Below, one piece after another: positions 1-40,572 of a stretch of 64,000 bases of DNA (positions within the stretch are counted from its first letter, which is position 1; the number at the start of each line of letters is the position of its first letter). This DNA comes from a virus. Where the stretch lies: IMG/VR virus record IMGVR_UViG_3300017963_000225, positions 1-64,000 of that record; one strand, written 5' to 3'. Below the pieces are notes generated by a model. It ran no database searches, had not been told where the DNA came from, and saw only the letters and a list, made by a program, of their open reading frames with translations. Both the position numbers and the translations under genes were made by a program.

Positions 1-533
1 AGCTCCTCGTCGTCCAGCTTGTATTTGCCGGCGTCGTCAGCGGGCTCCTCTAGGATGAGGTTGGCCCAAGCGTCGAAGTCGGAAAACTCCTCGGACGACA
101 TGATTTCGGCGGTGAGCGTTTTCAGGTCCTCGTCCGACGTGGCGCCCTTCACCTGATTGCTTTCGAGCATCAAGTATTTCGCCAAATCCTCCGACATTTC
201 GCCGAGGTTGACGACCGGGATCTCGTCGTAGCCTAGCTCGCTCGCTGCTCGCCAACGGTGCTCGCCATCGACAATCATATACGGCGCCGCTTGCGGATCG
301 CTGGCGCGTTCCGGGTTTGGCCGCACTAAAATCGGAATGGTAAACCCTACTTTCGGATCAGCCATATTGGCCTTGAGCGCCGAAAAATAGGCATTGCCCA
401 TCTTGTTTTTATTGTATGGATTGGGGACAACCTCGCGCACCGAAACGAGACGACTCGTGCGGGCGCGAAGTATGTCCATGAGCTTGTTGCGATCGACCTT
501 TGCGAGGTCAACCTTTGCAATTCGTTTGACCAT
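1..533 (-). CDS. ParB-like nuclease-domain protein (3' end cut by window)
   Basis: The open frame runs from an ATG at 533 to the window edge without a stop, giving 177 residues of an incomplete protein. The signature GEHRWRAA lies at residues 90-97, preceded by VPNPYNKNK (36-44) and PILVRP (67-72), the normal order of a ParB/Srx N-terminal domain. An AGGAC box sits three bases before the ATG. Such domains bind or cut DNA, or act as nucleotide-dependent switches; phage copies are also found beside base-modification genes. It is the last visible gene of a minus-strand group with a basic protein, a radical SAM enzyme and a JAMM protein. The C-terminal part, which would decide the function, is outside the window. 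Confidence 0.85.
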   Translation of the reverse strand, partial: MVKRIAKVDLAKVDRNKLMDILRARTSRLVSVREVVPNPYNKNKMGNAYFSALKANMADPKVGFTIPILVRPNPERASDPQAAPYMIVDGEHRWRAASELGYDEIPVVNLGEMSEDLAKYLMLESNQVKGATSDEDLKTLTAEIMSSEEFSDFDAWANLILEEPADDAGKYKLDDEE

Positions 534-4328: not shown

Positions 4329-5114
4329 TTAGGCTCGTTTTGCGAACGCGCCGGGCTCGACAGGTCCTCGTTTCAACGCTGCACGCACGCGCCCTAGCGT
4401 GGCCGCGCCTTTCACGATGGGCCTCCCCGCAGCGACTTGTGCGCGCTGCCAAGCGATGAATTCAGCCCACGTCGTAATAGTGCTTCTTCCTTTCGGTGTG
4501 GCTTTCATTTTCGCCACCGGCCGAGCCACCGGCCGAGCCTTCGGCCGAGCCTTCGGCCGAGCCTTCGGCCGAGCCTTCGGCCGAGCCTTCGGCCGAGCCT
4601 TCGGCCGAGCCTTGGTCGCCTTCGGCCGCAGGCGAATCACTTCGGCGATCGATCCGTCCGGCAATTTCGCTCCACGTATATCCGTGTCAGGCATACCAGC
4701 GCGAGCTAAGCGTGCGATTGAGCCTGTGAGCGCTGCGGTGAGGTCAGCGCCGCGCAGGTCGGCGCAATATAGGCGAGCGCATCGCAAATCCGCCGTGTCG
4801 ATCCGTGCGCCGCGCAAGTCCGCGCCGCTGAAATCGACGCCGGTAAGGTCGGCACCGCGGAAATCGGCACCGCGTAAGTCGGCACCCTTGAAGCTAGCGC
4901 ATGACAAGTAAGCACCCGCAAAATAAGCGCTTTTCAGTGAAGCATAAGAAAAATCAATCCCGCGCATATCCTGTCCGTGCAGCCACCCGTCGTCCAAGTA
5001 ATTGAAATTATTGAATTTTTGACCCCTGAAGCTTGCTTTCGTGCAAGCAAAACCCGACAATTTTGACACGTAACCGCTTGAAAGTACTGACATTTTCGCT
5101 GGTGTGGCGTTCAT
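4329..5114 (-). CDS. pentapeptide-repeat protein with RPKA tail
   Basis: A 261-residue protein if started at ATG 5114, which has GGGGGG five bases upstream; the longer frame back to a GTG at 5222 has no good ribosome site. About residues 35-150 are pentapeptide repeats of the A(D/N)LxG type (ADLRGADFRGADLTG and so on), which fold into a right-handed beta-helix; some members mimic DNA and bind gyrase. The helix is followed by a tail of six RPKA and two RPVA repeats, strongly basic, then a C-terminal helical segment with WAEFIAWQRAQ. A beta-helix joined to a basic tail is an unusual layout; target unknown. Confidence 0.8.
   Translation of the reverse strand: MNATPAKMSVLSSGYVSKLSGFACTKASFRGQKFNNFNYLDDGWLHGQDMRGIDFSYASLKSAYFAGAYLSCASFKGADLRGADFRGADLTGVDFSGADLRGARIDTADLRCARLYCADLRGADLTAALTGSIARLARAGMPDTDIRGAKLPDGSIAEVIRLRPKATKARPKARPKARPKARPKARPKARPKARPVARPVAKMKATPKGRSTITTWAEFIAWQRAQVAAGRPIVKGAATLGRVRAALKRGPVEPGAFAKRA
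4513..4608 (-). repeat. 12-bp tandem repeat, eight units
   Basis: Eight head-to-tail 12-bp units (two gccaccggccga, six gccttcggccga on the plus strand) encode the RPVA/RPKA tail of the pentapeptide protein. The six inner units are identical, implying recent expansion or slippage. Any change by whole units keeps the frame. Confidence 0.95.
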
Positions 5115-5145
5115 AAATCCCCCCGGTTGGTGGTTGTGTGGTCGT

Positions 5146-5174
5146 ATATTCTTATCGGCACGAGCGCAAATCAA
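5146..5174 (-). promoter_or_regulatory. candidate sigma70-type promoter for the pentapeptide gene
   Basis: On the minus strand TTGATT (5174-5169) and GAATAT (5151-5146) are 17 bases apart, placing a start of transcription about 25 bases before ATG 5114. The -35 is good, the -10 weak. It sits in the 240-bp divergent gap before the plus-strand operon; no convincing plus-strand promoter was found there. Confidence 0.3.
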
Positions 5175-5355
5175 CTTGAGCAATATTTTTAGTCCATTGT
5201 AATCATTGGGTTTTTTGGCCACAATTTTTTCTGTTGACGAAACCCTCGCGGTCCTGCACTGTCACGACTCAACAAACCGACCAAGAAAATGACAAAAAAC
5301 TTGACAAGCTAATTCCGCTTTTGCGGCGCTGGCTTCCGAAGATGTGGGTTCAAGG

Positions 5356-10196: not shown

Positions 10197-10460
10197 TCAC
10201 TGCTGACACCTGACGCACTCGTCAACTGACGGCTTGCCGCTATCGCTGCGATAGCGCCACCACTGCACCGATTCGATGCAGATCAAGACGAGCCAGTTTG
10301 CCATGAGTGGCCACAATGAGTAATGCCATGTGTAAACCAGCTTAACCACGCATCCGATCAGCCCAAGCAAATGCAGAAGCCCCCTATCCTTCACGAGAAA
10401 ACTCGTGATGAAGATAGAGGTCCCCAGCCACCCCAAGGTTGTCCACATGGCCTCGGTCAT
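10197..10460 (-). CDS. small membrane protein, YgjV-like
   Basis: 87 residues from ATG 10460, overlapping the upstream stop (ATGA). Three hydrophobic stretches are seen: LGWLGTSIFITSFLV, LLGLIGCVVKLVYTWHY and LWPLMANWLVLICIE, a pattern like one half of the YgjV-type inner-membrane family. It is the last gene of the late operon, two genes after a lipoprotein and four after the endolysin. A lysis-related (holin-like) or a superinfection-exclusion role is possible; neither is shown. Confidence 0.65.
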   Translation of the reverse strand: MTEAMWTTLGWLGTSIFITSFLVKDRGLLHLLGLIGCVVKLVYTWHYSLWPLMANWLVLICIESVQWWRYRSDSGKPSVDECVRCQQ

Positions 10461-11020
10461 TTTGAAAACACCACAACCCAATAGTTGTTTACGACCGCAG
10501 CGCCCATCGACCGATTTTGTGCGTCTAGCATGGCTGCGCGATGCCCTGGACTAGCAAGCCATCCGTTTACGGCTTCCCGAGGGTTTCTGTGACCACACGC
10601 AATGATTTCGCTGCCGCTCACCATCTGAAAGCCGCATGCCTCGACGCGATCGACGAAGCTGGAGCTGTCGCCGCCAGCATGGGAACACATCCTTCGAGGG
10701 CCTATGTCATCGGCATGTCTTTGAGACGCGCACGAGAGAGCTTCCTCGGTCGAAAGAATGGGGAGGCTTCTGGACGCTCGCTCGCCATTAATGAGGAGGT
10801 AAAGCTTTGCTATTTCCTCCGTTGGGATCGGTGGAAAGTCAGGAATGTCTGGCGGGATCTCAGGCGGCAGGTCTGGCTCCTGAGGCAGTTCTGGTGGAAC
10901 GGGCCACACTGGCGGTGACTCGTCGGGAGTAGTTGGCTGCGGCGGCTGCGGCTCGTCCGAGTCGTCAGATGCACATCCGACTGTGGCCAATAGCAGTGAA
11001 AACAAGATTTTTTTCACCAT
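10457..11020 (-). CDS. CAP/SCP-domain lipoprotein
   Basis: 187 residues. A lipoprotein signal (KKILFSLLLATVGC, Cys16) is followed by a Pro-rich spacer of about 45 residues (PPELPQEPDLPPEIPPD) and a CAP domain (about 70-187): LYLLINGERASRSLPIL, ALSCASQRHADDI, CSHAGGDSSSF, NGWLASPGHRAAML and a final WVVVFSK, matching the bacterial YkwD-like CAP group. Such proteins are secreted and can bind lipids or act as proteases, mostly untested. The protein would sit on the host envelope, not in the virion. It overlaps VRR-NUC upstream by seven bases. Confidence 0.88.
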   Translation of the reverse strand: MVKKILFSLLLATVGCASDDSDEPQPPQPTTPDESPPVWPVPPELPQEPDLPPEIPPDIPDFPPIPTEEIAKLYLLINGERASRSLPILSTEEALSCASQRHADDIGPRRMCSHAGGDSSSFVDRVEACGFQMVSGSEIIACGHRNPREAVNGWLASPGHRAAMLDAQNRSMGAAVVNNYWVVVFSK

Positions 11021-11391
11021 GACTGTTCAAACTCCCTTAGCTTAGAGACAAACTCGTCGAGCGAATACACCACGGCCACCTTGCATCCAGCCGAAATCAA
11101 TCGCTTATGCCAGTCCTTTTGATGCTTCTCGACACGGCCAGCAGGCAGGCTTTTGAACATGGTTTTTTGAGCGGGCGCCTTCAGCTCAAAGCCGTAGAGA
11201 GTTCCGGGACGGCTCCTCGAAATCACTACGATGTCGGGAAATCCGCGCATTGGATTGGCTGAAAACGACACCTTGGTTTTTCCACCACCCCTAACGATCG
11301 GCGACAGCGGCACGCGCCAATGCTCGAAACCGCTGTGCTCAAGCCAACCGAGCACTGCTTCGAGAACATAACCTTCACGAGTTTTTGCCAT
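11014..11391 (-). CDS. VRR-NUC domain nuclease
   Basis: 125 residues with the PD-(D/E)XK-type VRR-NUC motifs: E at residue 6-11 in the first helix, GFPDIVVI near 49, FELKAP near 68, QKDWHKRL and a closing VVYSLDEF. Stand-alone VRR-NUC proteins of this length are common in phages, where they are thought to act as structure-specific nucleases or DNA ends trimming enzymes. It lies, unusually, among lysis and envelope genes. Confidence 0.85.
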   Translation of the reverse strand: MAKTREGYVLEAVLGWLEHSGFEHWRVPLSPIVRGGGKTKVSFSANPMRGFPDIVVISRSRPGTLYGFELKAPAQKTMFKSLPAGRVEKHQKDWHKRLISAGCKVAVVYSLDEFVSKLREFEQSW

Positions 11392-11605
11392 CTGCTTTCT
11401 CGTCTAGCCAAAGGACGACCGTTCGGCCGCCGTGCTCGTGAATGGCGATCAGGGTTTCAATGTCATCGTAGACGGCAACGCTGGTAAACCGCGTCAGCCA
11501 GTTGAGGGCGCATTTGCCGTTGGCGAATTGAACACCCTCGGCCACGATGCCAGTCCCGCTGACGCCGCTCACGTCCTCTTTGCGAGCCAGGTGAAACAAC
11601 CTCAC
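11375..11605 (-). CDS. small conserved phage protein
   Basis: 76 residues from a GTG at 11605 that overlaps the stop of the 48-residue gene upstream. The layout LFHLARKEDVSGVSGTGIVAEGVQF...WLT...IEAIHEHGG is common among short phage proteins found near lysis or DNA genes. Predicted beta-rich; function unknown. Overlaps the VRR-NUC gene by 17 bases. Confidence 0.65.
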   Translation of the reverse strand: MRLFHLARKEDVSGVSGTGIVAEGVQFANGKCALNWLTRFTSVAVYDDIETLIAIHEHGGRTVVLWLDEKADGKNS

Positions 11606-11748
11606 GTTGTCTCCTCCGCCTTACGGTTAGGACACTCAGGCTTCTCGCACGGCGGCTTGCCGGCGCAGCGGTTGCGTTTCCCGAGTTTCCCGACAACCCA
11701 AGGAAGGACAAAACCAACAATACGAATTATGTCCCAAAATTTGCCCAT
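11602..11748 (-). CDS. tiny membrane-anchored basic protein next to endolysin
   Basis: 48 residues: MGKFWDIIRIVGFVLPWVVG is a hydrophobic helix, followed by a basic Cys-containing tail (KLGKRNRCAGKPPCEKPECPN). The ATG at 11748 overlaps the endolysin stop as TAATG and its stop overlaps the next GTG, so it is part of a tightly coupled chain. One membrane span plus a positive tail next to an amidase is compatible with a small holin or antiholin, but a role is not shown. The three Cys may bind metal. Confidence 0.6.
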   Translation of the reverse strand: MGKFWDIIRIVGFVLPWVVGKLGKRNRCAGKPPCEKPECPNRKAEETT

Positions 11749-12398
11749 TAGAGGCTCCCGAACATCGCTGATTTTTCTTCAAGTTTCTTACGAAACTCTC
11801 GCATGCTTGTTGGCAGAACGCCACCCGGATCGTACTTTCGACCGAGTGGAAGCGCTGCCTCGTCGTGACCAGCGATATTCTGCGGATCAATCCCGAGGGC
11901 GATAAACCACAAGCAGACATGCTCAAGCATGGTCACTTGTTTATCGGTCGCTTTGTCCCACCACCACATCTTCCCGTCGATGTTGTCTTTACGATATTCG
12001 GCATCCAATGAATCGACAGGCTCGCCTGACCACGACGACAACGACCCGTCTTCTTTTGATTCGGTCAGCCACCCCCAGCTAACCAACGCGATAGCCACAT
12101 GCCGTCGGTTTGGCGACACGCCGAGCCATGAAGCATTGCCGGCATGAGAAACTGCATTGTTTAGGTAAGCCGTCTGCGTGACCATCCCATCTCTGTCGAT
12201 AATGAGGTGATACCGCAAGTTGTTTTTTTTCAACTCGCGGAACACCCTGGAAATGTCTCGGTCGGCTGTATAATGAATCGTGATGCCTTGCGGACCACTG
12301 CTACCGAAAGAGTTCTTGAGGCCGAGGCCCGGCTCCTCGATTCGACCAACGAATGGGTAAATTGGTGGGATCAATCCATTTTTGGTTTTCGCAGTCAA
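11748..12398 (-). CDS. endolysin, N-acetylmuramoyl-L-alanine amidase (Amidase_2)
   Basis: 216 residues. The amidase_2 zinc ligands and fold signatures are visible: TIHYTAD (H42) after the first strand, YHLIIDRDG, NAVSHAGNASWLG, and GHDEAALPLGRKYDPG near the C-terminus with the second His and the catalytic Lys region. There is no signal peptide, as expected for a holin-dependent endolysin. No cell-wall binding domain is seen. It would cut the amide between muramic acid and the stem peptide. It overlaps the cytochrome-like gene by ATGA. Confidence 0.92.
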   Translation of the reverse strand: MTAKTKNGLIPPIYPFVGRIEEPGLGLKNSFGSSGPQGITIHYTADRDISRVFRELKKNNLRYHLIIDRDGMVTQTAYLNNAVSHAGNASWLGVSPNRRHVAIALVSWGWLTESKEDGSLSSWSGEPVDSLDAEYRKDNIDGKMWWWDKATDKQVTMLEHVCLWFIALGIDPQNIAGHDEAALPLGRKYDPGGVLPTSMREFRKKLEEKSAMFGSL

Positions 12399-12703
12399 CT
12401 TCCCTCCAAATACGCCAAGAGCTTCGTTTTGTATTCAACCGGCAGTGTTGCAGGCGACGGTGGCATGCGTCCACTTTCGATAGCCGCCTTCACCTTCGGC
12501 GTCTTAAACGACGATTTTTTTGATAGGTCGAGCGGTTGTTTGACTCCGTTGTGACATTTAACACACGATTCTTTGACAATTGGCTTGATCGCGTCCCATT
12601 CTGGATCGCCCATCTGTTGGGGGGACGGCTCGCTCGATTCGTCATGGCCGCAACCAGTCGCCAAAAACAAAGCCATAAATAACCAGCCAACAAGCCTGAA
12701 CAT
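12395..12703 (-). CDS. monoheme c-type cytochrome-like lipoprotein
   Basis: 102 residues from ATG 12703. A lipobox (FLATGC, Cys18) ends the signal peptide. Heme attachment motif CVKCH at 47-51 and a distal GRMPPSP near residue 85 give the His-Met ligation pattern of small class I cytochrome c domains ('cytochrome c-like, MPP' type). It should be an outer- or inner-membrane-anchored periplasmic electron carrier, if the host matures it. It overlaps the endolysin gene, so it is firmly in the phage late operon. A c-type cytochrome is very unusual in a phage. Confidence 0.85.
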   Translation of the reverse strand: MFRLVGWLFMALFLATGCGHDESSEPSPQQMGDPEWDAIKPIVKESCVKCHNGVKQPLDLSKKSSFKTPKVKAAIESGRMPPSPATLPVEYKTKLLAYLEGS

Positions 12704-12722
12704 CGTTTTTTTTCTCCTGTAT

Positions 12723-14609
12723 TCATCGTGGATCTTCAAACAGTCTTAGGTCGGCGATCACCGCCTGCAACGCCGTTGCGAACGTCTCGAATGGAATTGT
12801 CCCACCTGCAAAAAGCTGACCCCATTGGCTTCTCGCTGTCTGACTCTGATTGAGAATGATCTGGCACTCGCTCTTTCGTAGCCACAAGGTCCCGCATACC
12901 TTCGCCATATCCCATGGCAGAAGGTGTGAATCAGAAGCTGCCGTCACGGGCTCGGTTTGCGCCGACGTGTCAAGAGTCGTAAACCCGAGTCCTTTGAGCG
13001 ATTCAAAATAGTTGTCGTTCTCCAGTTTGATAAGCTCATTCACAACCGGCTGACTGTCGTACACGGCAAGAATCAGGTCGCGGTCATCCTTAAACTCCGA
13101 GCCATTCGCTGTGACGATAGCTCGTATTTGATCGGTGACTGGAAGGATGCCGGAAGCGTGACAACGGAAGCATGAGATGCCGGCCTGGATCTCTGACGAC
13201 ACAGGACTAACGAAATCACGCACGACGTTGACAGGAGCAACGTTCTGGAGCTGGTCGAGGTCGCTCCTGACAAAAACACCGTTGTTCACTGTCTGGCGAG
13301 CGTTGAACAAAGTGTAGCCTTGCAGTCCGTTCGGCAGCGTGTGGATGCACTCTCCCGCGATAAACTGCGCGTTGAGTTTGCCTCCAACGTCACCCAGTAA
13401 TGGAAAGTTGGAAAATGTTTTTTCTGGCGTGTCTATCGGGCCGGTGTCGTAAGTACACCACAGGCTTCCGTCTCGTGAGTCGTGAACGCTCAACATGCGG
13501 TTGTGAGGCGACAGCGGTGAGCCGACAAAAGCAGCGAGCGTAGCCTCGCGCTGCTGAAGGTCCTTAGCGTAGTCCACGCCGATCTGCTGAATGAACTGAT
13601 CGAAGTTGGCGGCCGTTTCCGTCAGGTTGTAGTAGACGGCAGCATTCCGAAACCCAGCGTCGATTAGTGAGCCGACGTGAAGCCACGGCTTCCGCGTGCC
13701 GGTGAGCAGCTTCAAAAGGTCGCCTTTTGAGGTCCTGCTCTCGATGTTCACCACGTCCGCGTTCTCGACCGCCTGCCATTCGCCGGCGTCGATCGCCACG
13801 TCGTCAAGGTCGAAGCGCCAAATGCCAGGGGCCACCTCGACCAGCTCGGCAAGCTCACGCTCAGTGCTCAGGCTATTGATGGCCTTCAGCGCCGCCTTCT
13901 CGTACAGCTCTAGCTGCTCGTCGGTGCCGCCGCTGTTGATAACGTCAGTCGCGACGAGGTATCGAGTCGTCACCCGGTTTTCAATACTTACCTTTGTCGT
14001 GTCCGTGATGTCCGCGATAATGGCCGCTTCCGACTCCTCGAAGGACTGAAAATCGAAGTCCCCCTCTCCATCACCCGGCTCAGCAGGCGACGGGCAAAGG
14101 CCGTCGATAATCCAATTCTCAAATGCCGAAATCTCATCGTCGGTGAGAGACGAATTTTTCGGCATGTGCTGCGGATCAGAAGGCGCGAGCCTGAAGCGCC
14201 TCAGGTACTCATCTGAGGAATTTTTGGCCTTCTCGAAGCTGTCGTAACCTCGATGGCACGAGCCAGTACAACTGCGCGTCAAAATCGGCTGCACGGTCGC
14301 AAAGGTCGTGTCGCCCGGAGCGCAATCTGGCGGTGGTTGTGTCTCGCAAGAATTCACCGCTTCTTTGTAGCCATCTGCCGTGCATACCAAAACAATGGTG
14401 CCGTCCTCACCCTCGCCGCAATCAAGCTCCTTGGTGCTGCCGATAGGATCGCTGTCGCACGACAACAAAGGCGCGGCGACCTGTACTTGCTCTTTCTCCG
14501 TCGAGCAGCCGGTCAACCTGTCGAGAAACACGGTCAATATCGAGGCGGTGATGAGAATTGTGGACAGTTTAAGCAAACGCCGAGCATCGCGAAGCTGTTG
14601 CTCTGTCAT
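12723..14609 (-). CDS. large exported protein with two c-type heme motifs
   Basis: 628 residues. The N-terminus has a membrane segment (about 14-29) followed by LTGC (Cys35), possibly a lipobox although charged residues precede it. Residues 45-90 hold paired Cys. Heme site 1 is CTGSCH (114-119, a CxxxCH variant) with HMPKN near 148-151 as likely distal ligand; heme site 2 is CFRCH (480-484). The middle part (200-470) is not recognised. Layout resembles large exported cytochrome-domain proteins of myxobacteria, planctomycetes and Bdellovibrio rather than any phage protein. It lies directly upstream of the monoheme lipoprotein. Confidence 0.8.
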   Translation of the reverse strand: MTEQQLRDARRLLKLSTILITASILTVFLDRLTGCSTEKEQVQVAAPLLSCDSDPIGSTKELDCGEGEDGTIVLVCTADGYKEAVNSCETQPPPDCAPGDTTFATVQPILTRSCTGSCHRGYDSFEKAKNSSDEYLRRFRLAPSDPQHMPKNSSLTDDEISAFENWIIDGLCPSPAEPGDGEGDFDFQSFEESEAAIIADITDTTKVSIENRVTTRYLVATDVINSGGTDEQLELYEKAALKAINSLSTERELAELVEVAPGIWRFDLDDVAIDAGEWQAVENADVVNIESRTSKGDLLKLLTGTRKPWLHVGSLIDAGFRNAAVYYNLTETAANFDQFIQQIGVDYAKDLQQREATLAAFVGSPLSPHNRMLSVHDSRDGSLWCTYDTGPIDTPEKTFSNFPLLGDVGGKLNAQFIAGECIHTLPNGLQGYTLFNARQTVNNGVFVRSDLDQLQNVAPVNVVRDFVSPVSSEIQAGISCFRCHASGILPVTDQIRAIVTANGSEFKDDRDLILAVYDSQPVVNELIKLENDNYFESLKGLGFTTLDTSAQTEPVTAASDSHLLPWDMAKVCGTLWLRKSECQIILNQSQTARSQWGQLFAGGTIPFETFATALQAVIADLRLFEDPR

Positions 14610-14650
14610 GGGGCACCTATTGTGTTGTTTATGAGAGAATTATACTGCAC

Positions 14651-15688
14651 TTACAGGAAATAGTGAAACATCAGCGCGCCGCTGTTGGACGCTTCACCTT
14701 GCGAAAAGCTTCGCTTAGCTTGAGCGAGAAGCTCAAAGTGAGGGCGGGGAAACCATGAAGAAAATATTCCGAAACCGTAAAGATCGCCGTTCCTGTCCAA
14801 TGTTGGGCCGAAGTGAACGCCTCGATAATACTCCCAACCTAACTTAGCAACCGCGAGGTCTGTCGCCTCTCCGAATTCAAAATTTCGATCGTACTCAGCC
14901 AAAAAATAAAGGCTTTCGTCGGCGGCGGTAATCACATGCGCTCCGAGCGCCGTCTGCTCCCCGAGCTTGAGAAGGCTGAAACCGACCTGTGTCCTGTCTC
15001 CGAGGTAAAACGCCGACCGCACGGTGCCGCCGCTGCGCTCGCCGGACACAACCACAAATCCGTCGCCATCCGTCCCGACAACCGAGGCTCTCTTCCCGTA
15101 AACGCCGGAAACGAGCACCTCACCCCATTTGGTGACGAGGGCCGCTTCTGCGTTGTATGTCTCGCTGCCCTGCCCGAGCCCTAGCCCAAAGCGCGTTGGC
15201 AGCGTGTGGTCGGGAAAGTTGACGCCATACGCCGGAATGAAACGACCAAACCTAAAGTAAACATTTTCAATCGGTTGCACTTTTAGGTAAGTACGGCGAA
15301 ACTCCGAGTGACTGTCCCGCCCATAGAGGCCGACGGATCCAACCAGGGTAATCCCTTCAAATGGCATCACGGCGGCTTCGAGGTCCTTGTGCATCCAGAA
15401 CGGCCGCCCTTCGTCAGGGACGATCCAGCGGCTGTCGCCGCCGACCTCTACCCACCCGGGCAAGCTGGCGCCGTGGATGACGTTCTCCTCGCCCTTGCGC
15501 GACCAAGTGGTCATGGTCCGGCTCGCGCCGCGTCCATAGGTCGTCAGGACGTTGCCGCCGACCGCGCCAGACACATGGCAGGAAATGCACGACGGATATC
15601 CGTGGCGCACGAACTCTGGAAACGCCACGGATATCGTCGAAAACATCGCGCCGCAAATCAGCGCCGCTATTTGAAGCAAAATCCTCAC
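14651..15688 (-). CDS. outer-membrane barrel with N-terminal heme motif
   Basis: 345 residues. A signal peptide (about 1-22) is followed by HGYPSCISCHVSG (CxxCH at 34-38) and then a region rich in alternating aromatic/polar strands (TYLKVQPIENVYFRFGRFIPAYG, LALVTKWGEVLVSGVYG type) ending MFHYFL, as expected for a porin-like beta barrel. Proteins with a YPxCxxCHxS start and a barrel are frequent in Bdellovibrio and related deltaproteobacteria and are thought of as cytochrome-porin fusions. It shares an ATGA overlap with the YceI-like gene. A single heme in front of a barrel suggests electron transfer across the outer membrane, which is inference. Confidence 0.8.
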   Translation of the reverse strand: MRILLQIAALICGAMFSTISVAFPEFVRHGYPSCISCHVSGAVGGNVLTTYGRGASRTMTTWSRKGEENVIHGASLPGWVEVGGDSRWIVPDEGRPFWMHKDLEAAVMPFEGITLVGSVGLYGRDSHSEFRRTYLKVQPIENVYFRFGRFIPAYGVNFPDHTLPTRFGLGLGQGSETYNAEAALVTKWGEVLVSGVYGKRASVVGTDGDGFVVVSGERSGGTVRSAFYLGDRTQVGFSLLKLGEQTALGAHVITAADESLYFLAEYDRNFEFGEATDLAVAKLGWEYYRGVHFGPTLDRNGDLYGFGIFSSWFPRPHFELLAQAKRSFSQGEASNSGALMFHYFL

Positions 15689-16209
15689 TTTGAGATGATC
15701 CCTCTGACGATCACCGTAACATCCTTGGCGACAGTGATTTTCCCGTATTGGGGGATGCCAATCGCCGGATAATCAGTCAACGACACGACAAACTCAGCCC
15801 ACAGCTTGTTTCCCGACAAGCTCGCCAGTCCGCTGATTGGCTTCGTTTGTCCTTTCAGCGTCAGCTTCCCGGTCCAGGCAAATTTGTCTTTTGACACCTT
15901 CACCGGATCAAGAGCCAAGACCGCCTTCGGGTGAGCGGTCGTGTCAAGGTACTTGACCTTCATGTGGTCGTTTCGCAGCTCGTTTCCGGTGTCGAAGTCA
16001 GACAAATCGCACTCGAATGTTCCGCTGACCATTCCCTTCTCGTCAATTTTCCCGACCCCGGTCGCCTTGCCTCCTTTGCCGAATATTTTCACGACGCCAA
16101 GAGTGCTCTCGGCGCGCCATTCAACCTCGGCCCCTAGCTTCGCATCCGTTGCCGTCGCGAAGCTGGCTGAAAACCACGAGCACAGAATGAGAAGAATAAA
16201 ACGAGACAT
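15685..16209 (-). CDS. YceI-like periplasmic lipid-binding protein
   Basis: 174 residues from ATG 16209 (GAGGGG upstream). A signal peptide (RFILLILCSWFSASFA) precedes a YceI fold: a beta-rich lipocalin-like barrel with FECDLSDFDTGNELRNDHMKVKYLD, the characteristic 'D(F)xTGxxxRdxHMkxxyLD' of the family, and KLTLKGQTKPI. YceI proteins bind polyprenoid lipids such as quinones and are often encoded beside cytochromes. It overlaps the barrel gene by ATGA, so export of a lipid carrier together with cytochromes appears to be one unit. Confidence 0.9.
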   Translation of the reverse strand: MSRFILLILCSWFSASFATATDAKLGAEVEWRAESTLGVVKIFGKGGKATGVGKIDEKGMVSGTFECDLSDFDTGNELRNDHMKVKYLDTTAHPKAVLALDPVKVSKDKFAWTGKLTLKGQTKPISGLASLSGNKLWAEFVVSLTDYPAIGIPQYGKITVAKDVTVIVRGIISK

Positions 16210-16217
16210 TCGTCCCC

Positions 16218-16475
16218 TCACTTTTCGATGATTGCGCTGACAAGGGCCAGCACCGATTGCAAGGAACGCTCAGCCACTGCCGTCATCTCTTCGGGAGCGG
16301 CCGACCTAAACTCATCGTCGATTTTATCGCTTCCTTCAATCGCTAGACGAGCCGAAGCAATCAATGGAGCAAACTTCGGAATGTCCATCCAATTAATCAC
16401 GCCGTCGGCCTTGGCAGCCTTGATGGACTTCGCCAGCTCATCCACGAGCGCCAGCATTTCCAGTGTCTCTTTCAT
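16218..16475 (-). CDS. small helical phage protein, unknown function
   Basis: 85 residues, AAGGAGG upstream. The sequence (DELAKSIKAAKADGVINWMDIPKFAPLIASARLAIEG) is a pattern found in many late phage operons near lysis genes, with no known function. No membrane segment. It separates the YceI-like gene from a lipoprotein. Confidence 0.65.
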   Translation of the reverse strand: MKETLEMLALVDELAKSIKAAKADGVINWMDIPKFAPLIASARLAIEGSDKIDDEFRSAAPEEMTAVAERSLQSVLALVSAIIEK

Positions 16476-16487
16476 CGCATACCCTCC

Positions 16488-17465
16488 TTAGAAAATTTGA
16501 TGAGTAGCCAGACCTCTCAGAAGCAAATAATCAAGCGCCGGCCCGATCCTTGGGCGTTCATCGCTCTCCCATTTGCAACGCTGATGCCGATAAGAATATC
16601 CAGACGATTCAGGGGAATATTCAGCCAGCCACCTCTGCGCTGGCTCTCTTTCGCACCAGTATTCTATCATAGGAACGCCCGTTCCTCGTGTCGCCTGACA
16701 CCAAGACAACCGCGAAAAACTTGAGACGGGCGAGTTGATGGCGTAGGCTGTAATCATCTGTAGCATGTTCAAATGCAGTGGATAGCACGGCTGTTTCGCA
16801 GCGACCGTTCCGCTTGCCGTTGCAATCATGTCTGTTTCAAACCTGTCTTTGGAAACTCGCGGCGCATCGCCAGTGATTCCGAAGAAATTGGCCACGCGAT
16901 CCCAAAGCCACCACAGGCCGCCGTTGATCTGTTTGTCCTCGCCAGCTCCCGGATAAAGACGGCCATTGCCCAATCCAGTCACATAGTCGCGATGCAGGGA
17001 CCACAACGCTGCAATCGCTTCCCTGTCCTCGGGGCATCGCCGCCAGCGCATCACCAGGCCGAAGGCGGTCCCAATCATGGCGTCACGGCTCGTGTCTACT
17101 CGATCAAGAGCTGGGTGGCGGTGAATCCGCCCGTCGTGGCTCGTGATGTTGTCGGCGACCGCTCGGAAAATACTGGCGCCGTCCTCGCACGACAGAACGC
17201 CAATTGCCAGGCCGCTGAATAGTGCGCTGTCGCCGCGCTCGTCTATTTCGTCGCCGTTCCTGGAGATGGGCATGCCTTCGTCGAGAAAGTCGCTGAGCAG
17301 CCTGGACACGAGGGCTTCATACTGATCGGGGACTGGAGCGTTCTCGGACGGCGGCAGGTCCGCTAGTGGGCTTGAAGGGGCGTCCTCATTTTTTCCTTGG
17401 CATCCAGCCAGAAGTAGAGCCGTTAGGAGCGCGCTTCCGATTCTTTTGTTCGCCGCCATAGCCAT
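16488..17465 (-). CDS. lipoprotein of unknown function
   Basis: 325 residues from ATG 17465 (GGGGAGAAG upstream). The lipobox LLLAGC (Cys22) marks a lipoprotein, followed by a Pro/Ser-rich spacer (SSPLADLPPSENAPVPD). The rest is helical with Trp-rich segments (GLVMRWRRCPEDREAIAALWSLHRDYV, GGLWWLWDRVANFFG) and eight or so Cys, suggesting disulfides. No family recognised. The first 80 bases overlap the 3' end of the upstream gene. Confidence 0.75.
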   Translation of the reverse strand: MAMAANKRIGSALLTALLLAGCQGKNEDAPSSPLADLPPSENAPVPDQYEALVSRLLSDFLDEGMPISRNGDEIDERGDSALFSGLAIGVLSCEDGASIFRAVADNITSHDGRIHRHPALDRVDTSRDAMIGTAFGLVMRWRRCPEDREAIAALWSLHRDYVTGLGNGRLYPGAGEDKQINGGLWWLWDRVANFFGITGDAPRVSKDRFETDMIATASGTVAAKQPCYPLHLNMLQMITAYAINSPVSSFSRLSWCQATRGTGVPMIEYWCEREPAQRWLAEYSPESSGYSYRHQRCKWESDERPRIGPALDYLLLRGLATHQIF

Positions 17466-17688
17466 AAAGGCTTCTCCCCTCGATGATTTGAAGTCGATGG
17501 TCGTGTTCGTCGATTTCGTCCCGATTGGTCTGAAGCTGAGACACAACCTCAACCATTTTCAAATTCAAATCGTGAAGGCTGGCGCTCATGTCAGACAAGA
17601 ATTTGACGCCGAAACTGCAAAGTCCGATTATGGCCGCGAGAAACAACTGGTAAACGTACTGCGACACGTCTTGAGGAGATGAAGACAA
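17386..17688 (-). CDS. membrane-anchored coiled-coil protein
   Basis: 100 residues if started at TTG 17688, which has GGAGGG seven bases upstream; TTG 17694 is the alternative. One membrane segment (YVYQLFLAAIIGLCSFGVKFL) is followed by a coiled coil (LHDLNLKMVEVVSQLQTNRDEIDEHDHRLQIIEG). This is the layout of an inner-membrane spanin or an XhlA-like protein. Its partner could be the small lipoprotein just upstream. The start codon is unusual, and the 3' end runs into the next lipoprotein gene by 80 bases. Confidence 0.55.
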   Translation of the reverse strand: MSSSPQDVSQYVYQLFLAAIIGLCSFGVKFLSDMSASLHDLNLKMVEVVSQLQTNRDEIDEHDHRLQIIEGRSLYGYGGEQKNRKRAPNGSTSGWMPRKK

Positions 17689-17701
17689 TGGCAAACCCTC
17701 C

Positions 17702-18046
17702 TCATAAGTCCCTTCTTCTCTTTTCAAATCCCGATTTGAAAGGGACCGCCTCGTCGTAAAAAACCGGCTCAGGATCTTGGCTAGGAACGTCAATAATAAG
17801 CGGCTCAAGGTAATCGCCTTGCCCAAGGTAAACCGCCTCACTCAAGCATGAGTATTCAACGCTTTTGTCGTCGCCGCACTCTTTCAAGGAAAGACCGCAA
17901 TCCTCTTGGAGGTATTTGTCGCAAATGATTACGTCACCTCCAATGGACCATATTTCCCTTTGCTTTACCGGCTTCCCAGAAGCCGAGCATGCGCCGATCC
18001 ATGACGCGGCGCATACGACTAGGAAGTAAATGAGTGTATGGTGCAT
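17702..18046 (-). CDS. small lipoprotein
   Basis: 114 residues from ATG 18046, AGGAG seven bases upstream. Signal peptide with lipobox (ASWIGAC, Cys20). The mature part has four Cys (VIICDKYLQEDCGLSLKECG, SCLSEAVYL) and an acidic Pro-containing C-terminus. No family recognised. It could be an outer-membrane spanin partner for the coiled-coil protein at 17386, though it is larger and less Pro-rich than most. Confidence 0.65.
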   Translation of the reverse strand: MHHTLIYFLVVCAASWIGACSASGKPVKQREIWSIGGDVIICDKYLQEDCGLSLKECGDDKSVEYSCLSEAVYLGQGDYLEPLIIDVPSQDPEPVFYDEAVPFKSGFEKRRRDL

Positions 18047-18059
18047 CGTCACACTCCTA

Positions 18060-19253
18060 TTAGAACCGTCCCATCAAAATCCAACGGCTAAGCGTGCCGT
18101 TGTAGATAGCCATGACTGACCCGCGAATTCCGAACGCAATAGAGTTATTTTGTGTGCAGGCACTGCCGGCAGTTGTTGACCATTCGATCCTTGAAGACGA
18201 GCTGCCCTCGGATGACGAATTGCATACAATGCTCATCGTTTGCCCCGAGGCATTGTTGATGACCATCATGTGCCCATCCGACACGAAAGTGCCGATTCCG
18301 TGGACCGCGAATGGAGATGTCGCTGTTATGAAATTTATGTAACCAGTCGTCGGGTTTAAGTTGTTATGGTCCCAGTTTCCGGTTGAGGCTACGTTAACGT
18401 TGTAATTTTCTAGCCTCGTAGTTCCCAGACTTAGATAGGCTGTCCCCCTAATGACATGCTGAACTCCTCCGCCAGATGGCCCTAAAGTCCAAGCACCGGC
18501 CGGACTTGTTTCCCCGATATTTACGCCGTTTCCAGAGAAGGCGATCTGGTCAGCGCCAGGGCTGAAAATGCCTGTATTCAAGTCTCCTAGGATCGAGAAA
18601 GCCGGAGCTGATACCGAACCTCCAGCTGCTGCTACTTGCCCGTTGCCGTAGATGATGAACTTGTCAGTAGATGTGTTCGTCCTTACCTTCAACACCTCTT
18701 GAGAGACGCTGTTGGAGGCACTTGTTACTTGAAGACCGAAGCCTGTAGCTGAGGTGTTGAAGATCCGAGCGATCCAGTTGCCTGGTACGGACGAGCTTGC
18801 CTCTAACAAATAGGTTGGCGAGGTTGTCCCGATTCCGACATTCCCGCCACTGTCTATTCGCATGCGCTCAGTGTCGTTCGACCGAAGAACAAATGGGTGA
18901 TTTGTTGTCGTTCCGACATACATCGTGGTGTCGGTGCCGTTGTAGCCAAACACCCCTTGAACGGTCGCATCTCCGCGTCTGACAATCAGGTTGTCATTGT
19001 CGCCGGCTGCTCCTGTCCCGGTAACGACCATCGTCGTTGTGGTGGACTGTCCCGTAATGTCAAGTCCAAGCAAGGCGTTGAGAGAGCCGGTCGCTCCATC
19101 AATCGACATCGCCTTCGTCGGCGTGCCGCTCGGTGACACGTAGAAATCCATATCCTGATCGGTCTTGGTTTCCTTGATCGTCCAAGCGCCGGCAAGCGAA
19201 GCAAGTCCAACCAAAAAACATGAAGCCACGATGGCGCGGCTTAACCTCTTCAT
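18060..19253 (-). CDS. exported phage-fibre-like protein 1
   Basis: 397 residues with GGAGGTG five bases before the ATG. An N-terminal signal peptide (AIVASCFLVGLASLAGA) is followed by a segment KETKTDQDMDFYVSPSGTPTKAMSIDGATGSL comparable to the N-termini of the two next fibres. The middle has repeats RMRIDSGGNVGIGTTSPT and FSILGDLNTGIFSPGADQIAFSGNG, typical of trimeric tail-fibre shafts just before chaperone domains, though no S74 peptidase is seen at the C-terminus. Normal phage fibres lack signal peptides. It could be a surface fibre displayed by the host. Confidence 0.8.
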   Translation of the reverse strand: MKRLSRAIVASCFLVGLASLAGAWTIKETKTDQDMDFYVSPSGTPTKAMSIDGATGSLNALLGLDITGQSTTTTMVVTGTGAAGDNDNLIVRRGDATVQGVFGYNGTDTTMYVGTTTNHPFVLRSNDTERMRIDSGGNVGIGTTSPTYLLEASSSVPGNWIARIFNTSATGFGLQVTSASNSVSQEVLKVRTNTSTDKFIIYGNGQVAAAGGSVSAPAFSILGDLNTGIFSPGADQIAFSGNGVNIGETSPAGAWTLGPSGGGVQHVIRGTAYLSLGTTRLENYNVNVASTGNWDHNNLNPTTGYINFITATSPFAVHGIGTFVSDGHMMVINNASGQTMSIVCNSSSEGSSSSRIEWSTTAGSACTQNNSIAFGIRGSVMAIYNGTLSRWILMGRF

Positions 19254-19277
19254 AAAAACACCTCCATTCGCTTCGGA

Positions 19278-19499
19278 TTATTCTTTGTCGCAGTCGATAA
19301 TCATGTTGCTGTGATTGGCTCGATCGCCGTCTACGTCCCACAATACGACAACGCACTTGTGTCCAAGATAGTTTGTTCCGTACACCTGACTGGAAAAATT
19401 ATTCCCATCGATTTTTCCAAGATGCTCTACGCCGCTTGGCTGCATTGTTGCACAACCGGAAGCGAGCATAATGCCAATGCTGAATACAACAAGTTTCAT
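19278..19499 (-). CDS. tiny lipoprotein
   Basis: 73 residues with lipobox MLASGC (Cys16) and a short mature part. It lies between two exported fibre genes, directly after a fragment of a lost tail-collar gene (19510-19578). No family recognised; a small exported partner of the fibres is possible. Confidence 0.6.
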   Translation of the reverse strand: MKLVVFSIGIMLASGCATMQPSGVEHLGKIDGNNFSSQVYGTNYLGHKCVVVLWDVDGDRANHSNMIIDCDKE

Positions 19500-19509
19500 A
19501 GCGCCCTCG

Positions 19510-19578
19510 TCACGTTTTGATGATGTAGTTCACGGTCAGGAACGGGTACGGCCGTTCACGCTCGCTTGCACTGGTCAT
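19510..19578 (-). pseudogene. remnant of a tail-collar fibre C-terminus
   Basis: The 22 codons from ATG 19578 end in ERERPYPFLTVNYIIKT, the usual C-terminal end of phage tail-collar proteins, and closely match VNYIVKY at the end of the intact collar gene at 19586. The residual coding piece has no ribosome site of its own. It indicates that a second collar domain stood here and was lost by recombination. Confidence 0.7.
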
Positions 19579-19585
19579 GCCGACC

Positions 19586-20509
19586 TCAATACTTGACGAT
19601 ATAGTTCACGACGACGGCTGGACCGACGTTGCTGAATGCAGTGCCACTTCCGGTTGTCCCGGTAACGCCTGTGTAATTTGGTAGGTCAACGCTATGCAGA
19701 TGCGACGAACCTGGCCCGGAAGTCCCGCTGAAATTTGGCGGATCGATGCTGTGGCTGTGCGATCCGTCTGCTTCGGTCTGCTCGGTTGAGTCAGCGCCGA
19801 CGCCAGTCACGCCTCGGATCAGAGATTGACTGCCGCCAGTTGAACGGCTTGTCGTAATGATGTGAGCATGAGGACCGTCGTTAGCTGATGAGAATGCTCC
19901 GTGGTCGTGACTAATGCTATGATTATGCCCACTCTCGGACGAAGAGTTCTGCGCAGCATGGTTGTGATCGTTCGTATGGTTGTGCGACGGCAAATTAGCT
20001 GTAGCGAGAGACGATGATTGCGATCCGCCTGACGCCCCGAGAGTCACACCGTCGACTCCAGATCCACCAGATGTGAGGCGATTCGCCGCAACGCCTCCCA
20101 TATTGTCCTTTCCGAATGCAGCGCGCCCGCGCATATCGGGGATATTAAACGTAGTCGTTCCGTTCCCGGCACCGTAGGATGTCCCGATGGCAGCGAACAG
20201 AGCCGCGTAGGTCGTGCGTGACACGGCCGTGCCATCGGCCAGAAGCCATCCAGTCGGAGCAGACGAGCCCGCAAAGGGCATCAAGGCCCCAGGAGGGACG
20301 CCGCCTGATGACGCTGGAAGCGGCTCGGTCAACGAAACGACGCCGCTCGCGCCAGAGATGCTCATCACATCCTTGACGGTGCCGCCGCTGTTGACCCGGA
20401 TGACGACGTTTCCGTTGTTGTCTGGATTGTAGATAACCCTGTCGCCTGCGAAGGCGGGTAGTGAGGAAACTCCAAGTCCGAAAAGTAGAGAAATGAGAAA
20501 ACTTTTCAT
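19586..20509 (-). CDS. exported tail-collar-domain fibre protein 2
   Basis: 307 residues. Signal peptide (MKSFLISLLFGLGVSSLPAFA) then RVIYNPDNNGNVVIRVNS, nearly the same as in the next fibre. Residues 70-160 form a phage tail-collar domain (PPGALMPFAGSSAPTGWLLADG, TTFNIPDMRGRAAFG), and a His-rich region (HNHTNDHNH, GHNHSISHDHG) of the kind that binds iron or zinc in collar trimers follows, ending VNYIVKY. The collar fold is normally in virion fibres; the signal peptide is not. GAGGC lies six bases upstream of the ATG. Confidence 0.88.
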   Translation of the reverse strand: MKSFLISLLFGLGVSSLPAFAGDRVIYNPDNNGNVVIRVNSGGTVKDVMSISGASGVVSLTEPLPASSGGVPPGALMPFAGSSAPTGWLLADGTAVSRTTYAALFAAIGTSYGAGNGTTTFNIPDMRGRAAFGKDNMGGVAANRLTSGGSGVDGVTLGASGGSQSSSLATANLPSHNHTNDHNHAAQNSSSESGHNHSISHDHGAFSSANDGPHAHIITTSRSTGGSQSLIRGVTGVGADSTEQTEADGSHSHSIDPPNFSGTSGPGSSHLHSVDLPNYTGVTGTTGSGTAFSNVGPAVVVNYIVKY

Positions 20510-20525
20510 TACTTGCCTCTATGTA

Positions 20526-21413
20526 TTACTGATAATTTGCACAAAGACACGCCCTGGTTCCAGAAGTCGTGGCGCAGCTCACACTGGTTGATGTGATTCT
20601 GACGGCGGCTATACAGATTACGCCGCTGCCAGAGTTCAAACATGCAGTGTCACAGGTGTCCCCTCCATTCGAGGCAGTAACTGCGAACATACTGACGGCT
20701 CCGATGGCCACTCCTGTCGTCACTCCGTAAGCGGGCACATAAAACTTTCCAGTCGTTCTGACCTCTTGTGAGCCAAAATCAGGAGATATTTTTGTACCGG
20801 CGATTGCTGCCGAAGCACTGACGTGAGTATTACTCACCGCGCTTGATGCCAATTCAGACGAGGTAATGGCGTTCGCGCCAATCTGTGTAGACGTCAAAGT
20901 GTCGTTAACGAGCTTGCCGCCAGTAATCGTGGTGTTGGCGATCTTGCCACCTGTGATCGTGGTGTTAGCGATATCACCGTCAGCGATCGTGCCGTCCAAA
21001 ATGTTCGTACTGTTTATGATGCCCGTACCACCGATGGCGGACGAGAATGTCTTCGCTCCGCTGATCGTCTGCGTTCCCTGCTTCATTACGAAGTCTTGAT
21101 CGGCTGTCGCCGAGCTTGGGAAGTTGACTGTGGTGCTTATTCCGGTGCCGCCGAGCGTCTTGGACAGAGGAGTCGTGAGGCCGGTGACTGTCGTGGTGCT
21201 CAGTCCATACGGTGCGGATATTGCGCCAGTCGATCCAGTGACCGTCAAGGCGTCCGTCTTTACTCCGTTGTCGTTGACGCGCAGAACTAGATCGCCGTCT
21301 ACTGCCGGATTTTCGATAACCCGGCGTGTTCCAGTGTTGCTATCCGCGAGCGCGATGCTCGTCAAAAAAAACGCCAAAAAACAGACAAAATAAACTAGGC
21401 AAAACTTACGCAT
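20526..21413 (-). CDS. exported fibre protein 3
   Basis: 295 residues from ATG 21413 (ATGA overlap with the upstream gene, GGGGAGG before it). Signal peptide (LVYFVCFLAFFLTSIALA) then RVIENPAVDGDLVLRVND, followed by a shaft of repeats (ITGGKIANTTITGGKLVNDTLTSTQIGANAITSSELASSAVSNTHV) as in trimeric fibres, and a C-terminal Cys-rich cap (GGDTCDTACLNSGSGVICIAA, SCATTSGTRACLC). The conserved N-terminal part after the signal peptide is shared with the fibre at 19586 and, more weakly, with the one at 18060. No tail-attachment domain is evident. Confidence 0.82.
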   Translation of the reverse strand: MRKFCLVYFVCFLAFFLTSIALADSNTGTRRVIENPAVDGDLVLRVNDNGVKTDALTVTGSTGAISAPYGLSTTTVTGLTTPLSKTLGGTGISTTVNFPSSATADQDFVMKQGTQTISGAKTFSSAIGGTGIINSTNILDGTIADGDIANTTITGGKIANTTITGGKLVNDTLTSTQIGANAITSSELASSAVSNTHVSASAAIAGTKISPDFGSQEVRTTGKFYVPAYGVTTGVAIGAVSMFAVTASNGGDTCDTACLNSGSGVICIAAVRITSTSVSCATTSGTRACLCANYQ

Positions 21414-40492: not shown

Positions 40493-40498
40493 TTTGAG

Positions 40499-40572
40499 TG
40501 GTCCAGGCCGGGCGCAAACCGGCATACTATCGCTTAGTAGGCGACTGCTCTATGCAATTGAGCTACTAGACC
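40499..40572 (-). tRNA. degenerate tRNA with ACT anticodon
   Basis: Read on the minus strand: acceptor GGTCTAG pairs with CTGGACC (one G-U), TA, D stem GCTC/GAGC, anticodon stem GTCGC/GCGAT (one G-U), loop CTACTAA with anticodon ACT, variable AGTAT, T stem GCCGG/CCGGC, discriminator A; no CCA encoded. 74 nt. T8, A14, A21, T33 are in place, but G18G19 are lacking in the D loop and the T loop TTTGCGC lacks C56 and A58. ACT would read AGU (Ser), yet serine tRNAs have a long variable arm and this one has five bases. It begins eight bases after the tail tube stop. Confidence 0.75.

Follow-up and report, generated by a model that had tools for sequence, protein, structure and literature searches.

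The 64,000-nucleotide window analysed here is part of a 91,634-bp virus record (IMG/VR IMGVR_UViG_3300017963_000225) that was read to its end. Because an exact 123-bp direct repeat lies at both termini (positions 1-123 and 91512-91634 of the phage genome, G000; the first copy is window 1-123), the genome is complete. It belongs to a contractile-tail phage (myovirus), with a PHROG-assigned sheath at 41126-42886 and a baseplate J protein, and also encodes a gpA-type large terminase, RecT and a DUF3799 exonuclease. A distant resemblance links it to Bordetella phage PHB04 in sheath and overall genome plan (26% identity). Its hosts are probably Bdellovibrionota, that is, Oligoflexia or their relatives. 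Positions 10197-21413 of the window hold a block of 18 genes in which exported proteins are concentrated. This block is two things: a redox cassette, comprising c-type cytochromes, a YceI-family lipocalin and a haem-porin encoded alongside an endolysin, and a private set of lipoproteins and exported fibres (Table 1).

Table 1. Features of the block, in window coordinates; genes are referred to in the text by their lower coordinate.
Feature	Position	Strand	Evidence or remark
Exported fibre 1, signal peptide, shared ~50-aa N-terminal domain	20526..21413	-	Weak tail-fibre PHROG matches
Exported fibre 2, phage tail-collar domain and signal peptide	19586..20509	-	PF07484 1e-23
Small lipoprotein	19278..19499	-	LASGC lipobox; no Pfam match
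Exported fibre 3, part like Bdellovibrio MAT fibre Bd2133	18060..19253	-	PDB 8ond; tail-fibre PHROG 4e-6
Lipoprotein	17702..18046	-	IGAC lipobox; no family match
Lipoprotein, no known family	16488..17465	-	LAGC lipobox; homologue in Oligoflexales-phylum genome
Periplasmic YceI-family lipocalin (quinone/isoprenoid-binding family)	15685..16209	-	PF04264 1.6e-16
Haem-porin, N-terminal CISCH and predicted 16-strand-type outer-membrane barrel, Cyc2-like architecture	14651..15688	-	
Large c-type cytochrome ('bigheme'), CTGSCH and CFRCH	12723..14609	-	Homologues in phages, cells, Neorhizobium
Mono-haem c-type cytochrome lipoprotein	12395..12703	-	Cytochrome_CBB3 4.7e-5, below Pfam cut-off; homologues
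Endolysin, N-acetylmuramoyl-L-alanine amidase, no signal peptide	11748..12398	-	PF01510 1.4e-14; lysis PHROGs
48-aa membrane protein, possible holin/spanin-like	11602..11748	-	Single hydrophobic segment; overlaps endolysin end
VRR-NUC-like nuclease	11014..11391	-	PF08774 0.0025, below cut-off
CAP-domain lipoprotein	10457..11020	-	PF00188 2.2e-15; TVGC lipobox

Signal peptides and lipoboxes were scored by one simple, uniform rule with our own cut-offs rather than by SignalP. By this rule, 12 of the 18 block genes, including the holin-like 11602, encode a signal peptide, a lipobox or a signal-like segment, compared with 4 of the 88 phage genes outside the block (9 of 88 if segments lacking a positive N-terminus are counted). 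The enrichment is significant under either count (Fisher p = 1e-8, or 1e-6 with the looser one), and shuffled block proteins gave a mean of 0.6 positives and a maximum of 4. All lipobox-positive proteins of the phage lie inside the block (0/88 elsewhere); the automatic lipobox call in 18060 is probably wrong, an ordinary signal peptide being likelier. An earlier note on this DNA had described a run of at least ten exported products, a description that these counts bear out. The open reading frames it named are all present on the minus strand, the three fibres it listed as exported (18060, 19586 and 20526) carry signal peptides, and the mono-haem gene overlaps the endolysin gene. Most junctions in the block overlap, as between YceI and the barrel, or are a few bases apart, with larger gaps before 12723 (+41 nt) and 19278 (+86 nt). 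Likely starts were corrected to 12703 (mono-haem lipoprotein), 16209 (YceI), 17465 (lipoprotein 16488) and 21413 (fibre 20526). As judged from gene order only, the block would be transcribed late.

Neither 14651 nor 12723 has a meaningful Pfam, PHROG or NCBIfam family match. The 14651 product has a signal peptide and a single CXXCH motif (MRILLQIAALICGAMF...CISCH); the motif AFPEFVR is followed by HGYPS, giving a five-residue spacing to CXXCH, after which the protein reads CISCHVSGAVGGNVLTTYGR. AlphaFold2 models it as a barrel of about 16 strands at low confidence (predicted local distance difference test, pLDDT, 51). When this model was searched with Foldseek, the top matches were all outer-membrane porins (E 3e-5), and practically every one of the 50 matches listed has a porin-type structure. 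Across all aligned phage and cellular barrels the haem motif does not vary.

These features recall Cyc2, an outer-membrane iron oxidase in which an AXPXFAR[Q/K][T/Y] motif stands five residues before CXXCH (PMC8406198). The two share a signal peptide, a single N-terminal CXXCH, a fused porin-type barrel (predicted in 14651) and a motif rich in proline and aromatic residues whose final R stands five residues ahead of CXXCH; linkage to a cbb3 oxidase in one relative, described below, is a further likeness. The phage protein keeps the fixed A, P, F and R of the Cyc2 motif but has V for A, H for Q/K and G for T/Y, and so lacks the strict motif. The PXL motif four residues after CXXCH is also absent, and the length of 345 aa falls short of the FeGenie rule of at least 365 aa. 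Because three defining Cyc2 features are missing, 14651 is Cyc2-like in architecture and not a member of the family. It differs further in being phage-encoded and in that the barrel, in phages, always has a YceI neighbour.

The remaining redox genes are assigned with varying firmness. The match of 15685 to YceI (PF04264) reaches 61.5 bits against a gathering cut-off of 23.7, and members of this family bind ubiquinone-8 as well as other isoprenoids (PMC9113575). The mono-haem protein 12395 combines CVKCH with a lipobox and matches PF13442 with E 4.7e-5, at 24.1 bits against a cut-off of 27. The large cytochrome 12723, which has a homologue among Neorhizobium c-type cytochromes (pairwise E 4e-16), had been described as an exported two-haem protein; its CFRCH motif is canonical, whereas the second motif, CTGSCH, is atypical and the signal is weak, being interrupted by D-R. 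At 18.3 bits, 11014 lies below the VRR-NUC Pfam gathering score of 23.8.

The redox cassette recurs in other phages. Barrel-bearing contigs were sought in IMG/VR first with a DNA pattern for the haem motif, which gave two further virus contigs, and then by alignment searches, which brought the total to eight siphovirus-like contigs with the cassette; two of these (L021 and L022) match each other over the part that was compared. In the best-studied member, Terminase_3 and a tape-measure gene were identified and a sheath was not noticed. In complete regions the six cassette genes keep a fixed order, with a small hydrophobic/coiled-coil protein in third place: large cytochrome, mono-haem lipoprotein, the small protein, M15 endolysin, YceI, haem-barrel and VRR-NUC-like gene, followed by RecT and DUF3799 in one siphovirus-like contig tested. 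The VRR-NUC-like gene was not found in contig G001, and contig G002 ends next to the barrel. Compared with siphovirus-like copies, the YceI protein 15685 shows 41% identity over 147 aa and the large cytochrome 28-29% identity, while 11014 matches the VRR-NUC-like copy, itself scoring 20.1 bits, with a pairwise E of 3.5e-4. With the large cytochrome as sole query, seven contigs were retrieved, each of them already in the barrel-search set. A cell-type barrel scan added a third, contractile phage, set apart by its own kind of sheath (phrog_23) and a tail tube of T4 type, in which YceI and barrel overlap by 41 nt and lipoproteins adjoin; the large cytochrome was not found in the 40-kb fragment available for this phage. 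YceI adjoins a haem protein in every phage contig covering the site. Single-protein IMG/VR scans with 12723, 14651 and TerL, which reach near relatives only, returned nothing; tblastn of the barrel against phage and plasmid collections gave no match, and an initial genome scan with the large-cytochrome pair found no relative.

The presence of the same core in nine other virus contigs argues against the block being host DNA that was misassembled into, or newly inserted in, the phage genome, an explanation that we regard as highly improbable. The trio of mono-haem gene, YceI and barrel is indeed host-like, and the fibre and lipoprotein half has slightly lower third-position GC content (GC3) and codon scores than the structural genes. 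However, the codon usage of 12723, 14651 and 15685 is that of the structural genes, genes of the block overlap with the endolysin gene, and the genome is complete with its terminal repeat. Repeats flanking the block, which the earlier note had named together with foreign codon usage as signs of a host insertion, were looked for and none was found. That note had also looked to conserved order in other phages as the mark of a functional unit. The redox subset does recur in this way, and for it alone is such a unit supported. The other cassette-bearing phages yielded no counterpart of the CAP protein, the small lipoproteins or the exported fibres; the block is not one ten-gene unit.

Named relatives in bacteria come from an Oligoflexales metagenome-assembled genome (MAG) and from a 'Deltaproteobacteria' MAG, which the taxonomy linked to its name assigns to Myxococcota. 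The barrel is present in 19 of 58 genomes of the Oligoflexales MAG's phylum and in 59 of 97 genomes of the second MAG's phylum, whose 1.2-4.5 Mb genomes appear to be those of Bdellovibrionota. At the inspected loci of the Oligoflexales phylum and the second phylum, respectively, YceI adjoins the barrel in 18/19 and 9/23 cases, and the mono-haem gene stands beside it in 10/19 and 13/23. Among Bdellovibrionota-type bacteria, mono-haem gene, YceI and barrel thus commonly form one chromosomal locus. Fewer cellular genomes have the large cytochrome (3/97 of the second phylum and 10/56 of the Oligoflexales phylum), and in one genome it lies directly behind a mono-haem gene. Genome G045 carries a haem-porin gene directly behind ccoNO, ccoP and ccoG, which encode a cbb3 oxidase (L099:1681-7496); its barrel is 34% identical to 14651 (BLASTP). 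Three cellular genomes have a protein of ~600 aa beside the trio (L102:7561-9363, L024:3814-5748 and L098:9282-11207), with helix-turn-helix (HTH) and tetratricopeptide repeat (TPR)-type matches in L102, and this neighbour is possibly a regulator or partner. In genome G024 a normal trio is adjoined by a second barrel relative (L098:4476-5687; E 3.5e-8), which is diverged and bears two haem motifs.

Phage large cytochromes form one clade (100/100), a result that carries the caveat of long branches. In the first barrel tree, this phage stood apart from the siphovirus-like clade, as if different phages had captured the barrel independently. Once the third phage was added and one long branch removed, a single phage barrel clade was not rejected (p-AU 0.58); given this value and the single clade of large cytochromes, independent capture was dropped. 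Every phage barrel is placed close to the same four cellular sequences, which come from the Oligoflexales phylum. The simplest reading would be that an Oligoflexia-like host was the source of one or a few captures and that unrelated phages then exchanged the genes; repeated capture is possible.

The sequences show genes for a YceI lipocalin, a single-haem porin with a signal peptide, a large c-type cytochrome and a mono-haem cytochrome lipoprotein grouped in the lysis region of unrelated phages. The reading we favour, to which we give somewhat short of an even chance, is that the redox half is an envelope electron-transfer module of host descent that became established in a phage lineage, passed between unrelated phages and sustains the respiration or the redox protection of the infected envelope. 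During late infection the redox proteins would be exported, and host cytochrome c maturation would attach their haem. The haem-porin would sit in the outer membrane, two proteins (mono-haem lipoprotein and large cytochrome) would face the periplasm, and YceI would carry quinone or another isoprenoid. Electrons could then pass, in either direction, between the outer membrane or the outside and the host's cytochrome c/cbb3 chain, and proton-motive force and envelope redox balance would be held up until the co-expressed endolysin ends the infection. That one relative's barrel sits in a cbb3 operon suggests that the path ends in the respiratory chain, and that the cassette's genes travel with endolysins suggests that it acts late. 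The benefit could be either energy or protection from lipid peroxidation. Under a bolder proposal, which strikes us as rather unlikely, tailed phages of Bdellovibrionota would carry in their lysis region, and exchange, a complete outer-membrane-to-periplasm electron conduit, drawing electrons from outside or discharging them there during host consumption; the virus would in this way commandeer the electron traffic of its host's outer membrane.

Several points weigh against an electron-transfer module. The cbb3 oxidase linkage was observed in one genome only. As noted, 14651 lacks both the strict motif and the PXL of Cyc2 and is shorter than 365 aa, the barrel model has the low confidence given above, and the model predicted for the large cytochrome is unusable. 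The probable host assignment comes from homology, and lysis-region genes may be expressed too late to aid respiration.

YceI itself suggests another role, possible though doubtful in our view, as part of an envelope antioxidant module. YceI would act like BcnA while the haem proteins recycle its quinone or remove peroxides, so that membranes stay whole up to the programmed lysis or withstand oxidative stress or defence. BcnA is a YceI lipocalin that guards Burkholderia envelopes from lipid peroxyl radicals, and its detoxification of these radicals together with the cytochrome b561 LcoA is an experimentally supported precedent, as is the binding of ubiquinone-8 by YceI (PMC9113575). The phage cassettes resemble this system in the genetic linkage of a YceI lipocalin to a haem electron-transfer protein, a linkage kept wherever a phage contig covers the site. 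However, the partners here are c-type cytochromes and a haem-porin, and the genes are phage-borne. Neither a cytochrome b561 nor an aldehyde reductase was noticed at the inspected loci, where YceI has the haem-porin, 16218 and c-type cytochromes beside it. An outer-membrane haem-porin has no place in the BcnA system, and the cbb3 oxidase linkage points to respiration.

Phages carry photosynthesis and metabolism genes. Viral auxiliary metabolic genes for respiration or haem, such as viral AlaS, are comparable in that they may sustain host respiration, but they act in the cytoplasm or inner membrane, whereas the block encodes an envelope and outer-membrane module. The nearest precedent is provided by Borg elements of Methanoperedens archaea, which carry multihaem cytochromes (PMC9605863) and are likewise mobile elements with envelope or extracellular electron-transfer proteins of their host. 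Borgs are giant archaeal elements with multihaem proteins, whereas here tailed phages carry mono- and di-haem proteins and an outer-membrane barrel in the lysis region. No such module of phage-encoded cytochromes or extracellular electron transfer was found in the openly searchable literature, subscription papers being outside the search, so that this absence is no proof. If the phage cassette does transfer electrons as proposed, viral control over host respiration or redox chemistry extends to the outer face of the envelope. The recurrence of the cassette in two other, structurally unrelated kinds of virus suggests that control of outer-envelope electron flow is useful to phages. The chromosomal locus of mono-haem lipoprotein, YceI and haem-porin, common as it is in Bdellovibrionota-type bacteria, is apparently undescribed.

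The private half, made up of the CAP lipoprotein, the other lipoproteins and the exported fibres, may, at a guess, alter the surface of the infected cell. Fibres 18060, 19586 and 20526 have a ~50-aa N-terminal domain in common, and the neighbouring tail fibres 21413, 23607 and 25285 have no signal peptide. Lipoprotein 16488 has a homologue (35% identity, E 4e-34) in the 7.4-Mb genome G031, from the Oligoflexales phylum. Exclusion by a small lipoprotein encoded in a phage operon is a classic arrangement, exemplified by T5 Llp. With four lipoproteins (including the CAP protein) and three exported fibres, the private half lends itself to surface remodelling or exclusion, in which porin, lipoproteins and fibres would alter receptors against superinfection or the sticking of progeny to debris, and the haems would be incidental ancestry. 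This is unlikely as an account of the block, given that the haem motif is invariant in all aligned barrels and that the recurring genes are those for haem and quinone-carrier proteins, not fibres. The earlier suggestion that the set rebuilds the surface or periplasm of the cell survives only in the form of an envelope electron-transfer module, and nothing supports the marking of progeny or host.

Mosaic adhesive trimer (MAT) fibres of Bdellovibrio function in prey entry (PMC10769870). The block fibres are likewise Sec-exported and phage-tail-fibre-like, and 18060 shares a stretch with Bd2133 (phmmer match to PDB 8ond, E 6.6e-6, residues 123-174). They differ from MAT fibres in being shorter and phage-encoded, with no S74 domain seen, and apparently in their N-terminal domain of ~50 aa; MAT fibres have a conserved, beta-rich domain of ~130 aa after the signal peptide. 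The best PDB matches of 18060 were designed repeat proteins, which were discarded as repeat-counting artefacts. The Bd2133 similarity, together with the frequency of the module in Bdellovibrionota-type genomes, would fit a phage that gives the infected predator host-type adhesins and respiration for entry into prey, where phage replication could proceed. We consider this very unlikely: the matched motif also occurs in marine phage fibres, a search of 56 Oligoflexales-phylum genomes with the fibre N-terminal domain gave no match, the host is not proven to be a predator, and the position of the genes suggests late expression. A giant putative surface protein with the MAT/fibre-type motif of 18060 is encoded by a 15,097-codon open frame in L090 (genome G018, C18).

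Elsewhere in the phage genome, a pentapeptide-repeat protein (PF00805, 4.6e-23) is encoded on the minus strand at window 4329-5222, before the recombination genes, and a tRNA-Ser with the anticodon ACT, unusual for bacteria, lies between tail genes at 40498-40572. A 1511-aa protein at 59434-63969 joins a UvrD helicase C-terminus to an N-terminus of ~1000 residues of no assigned family. Beyond the window, adjacent glycosyltransferase and polysaccharide pyruvyl transferase genes (G000 75193-77435; L002:15193-17435) possibly direct a modification of surface glycans by the phage.

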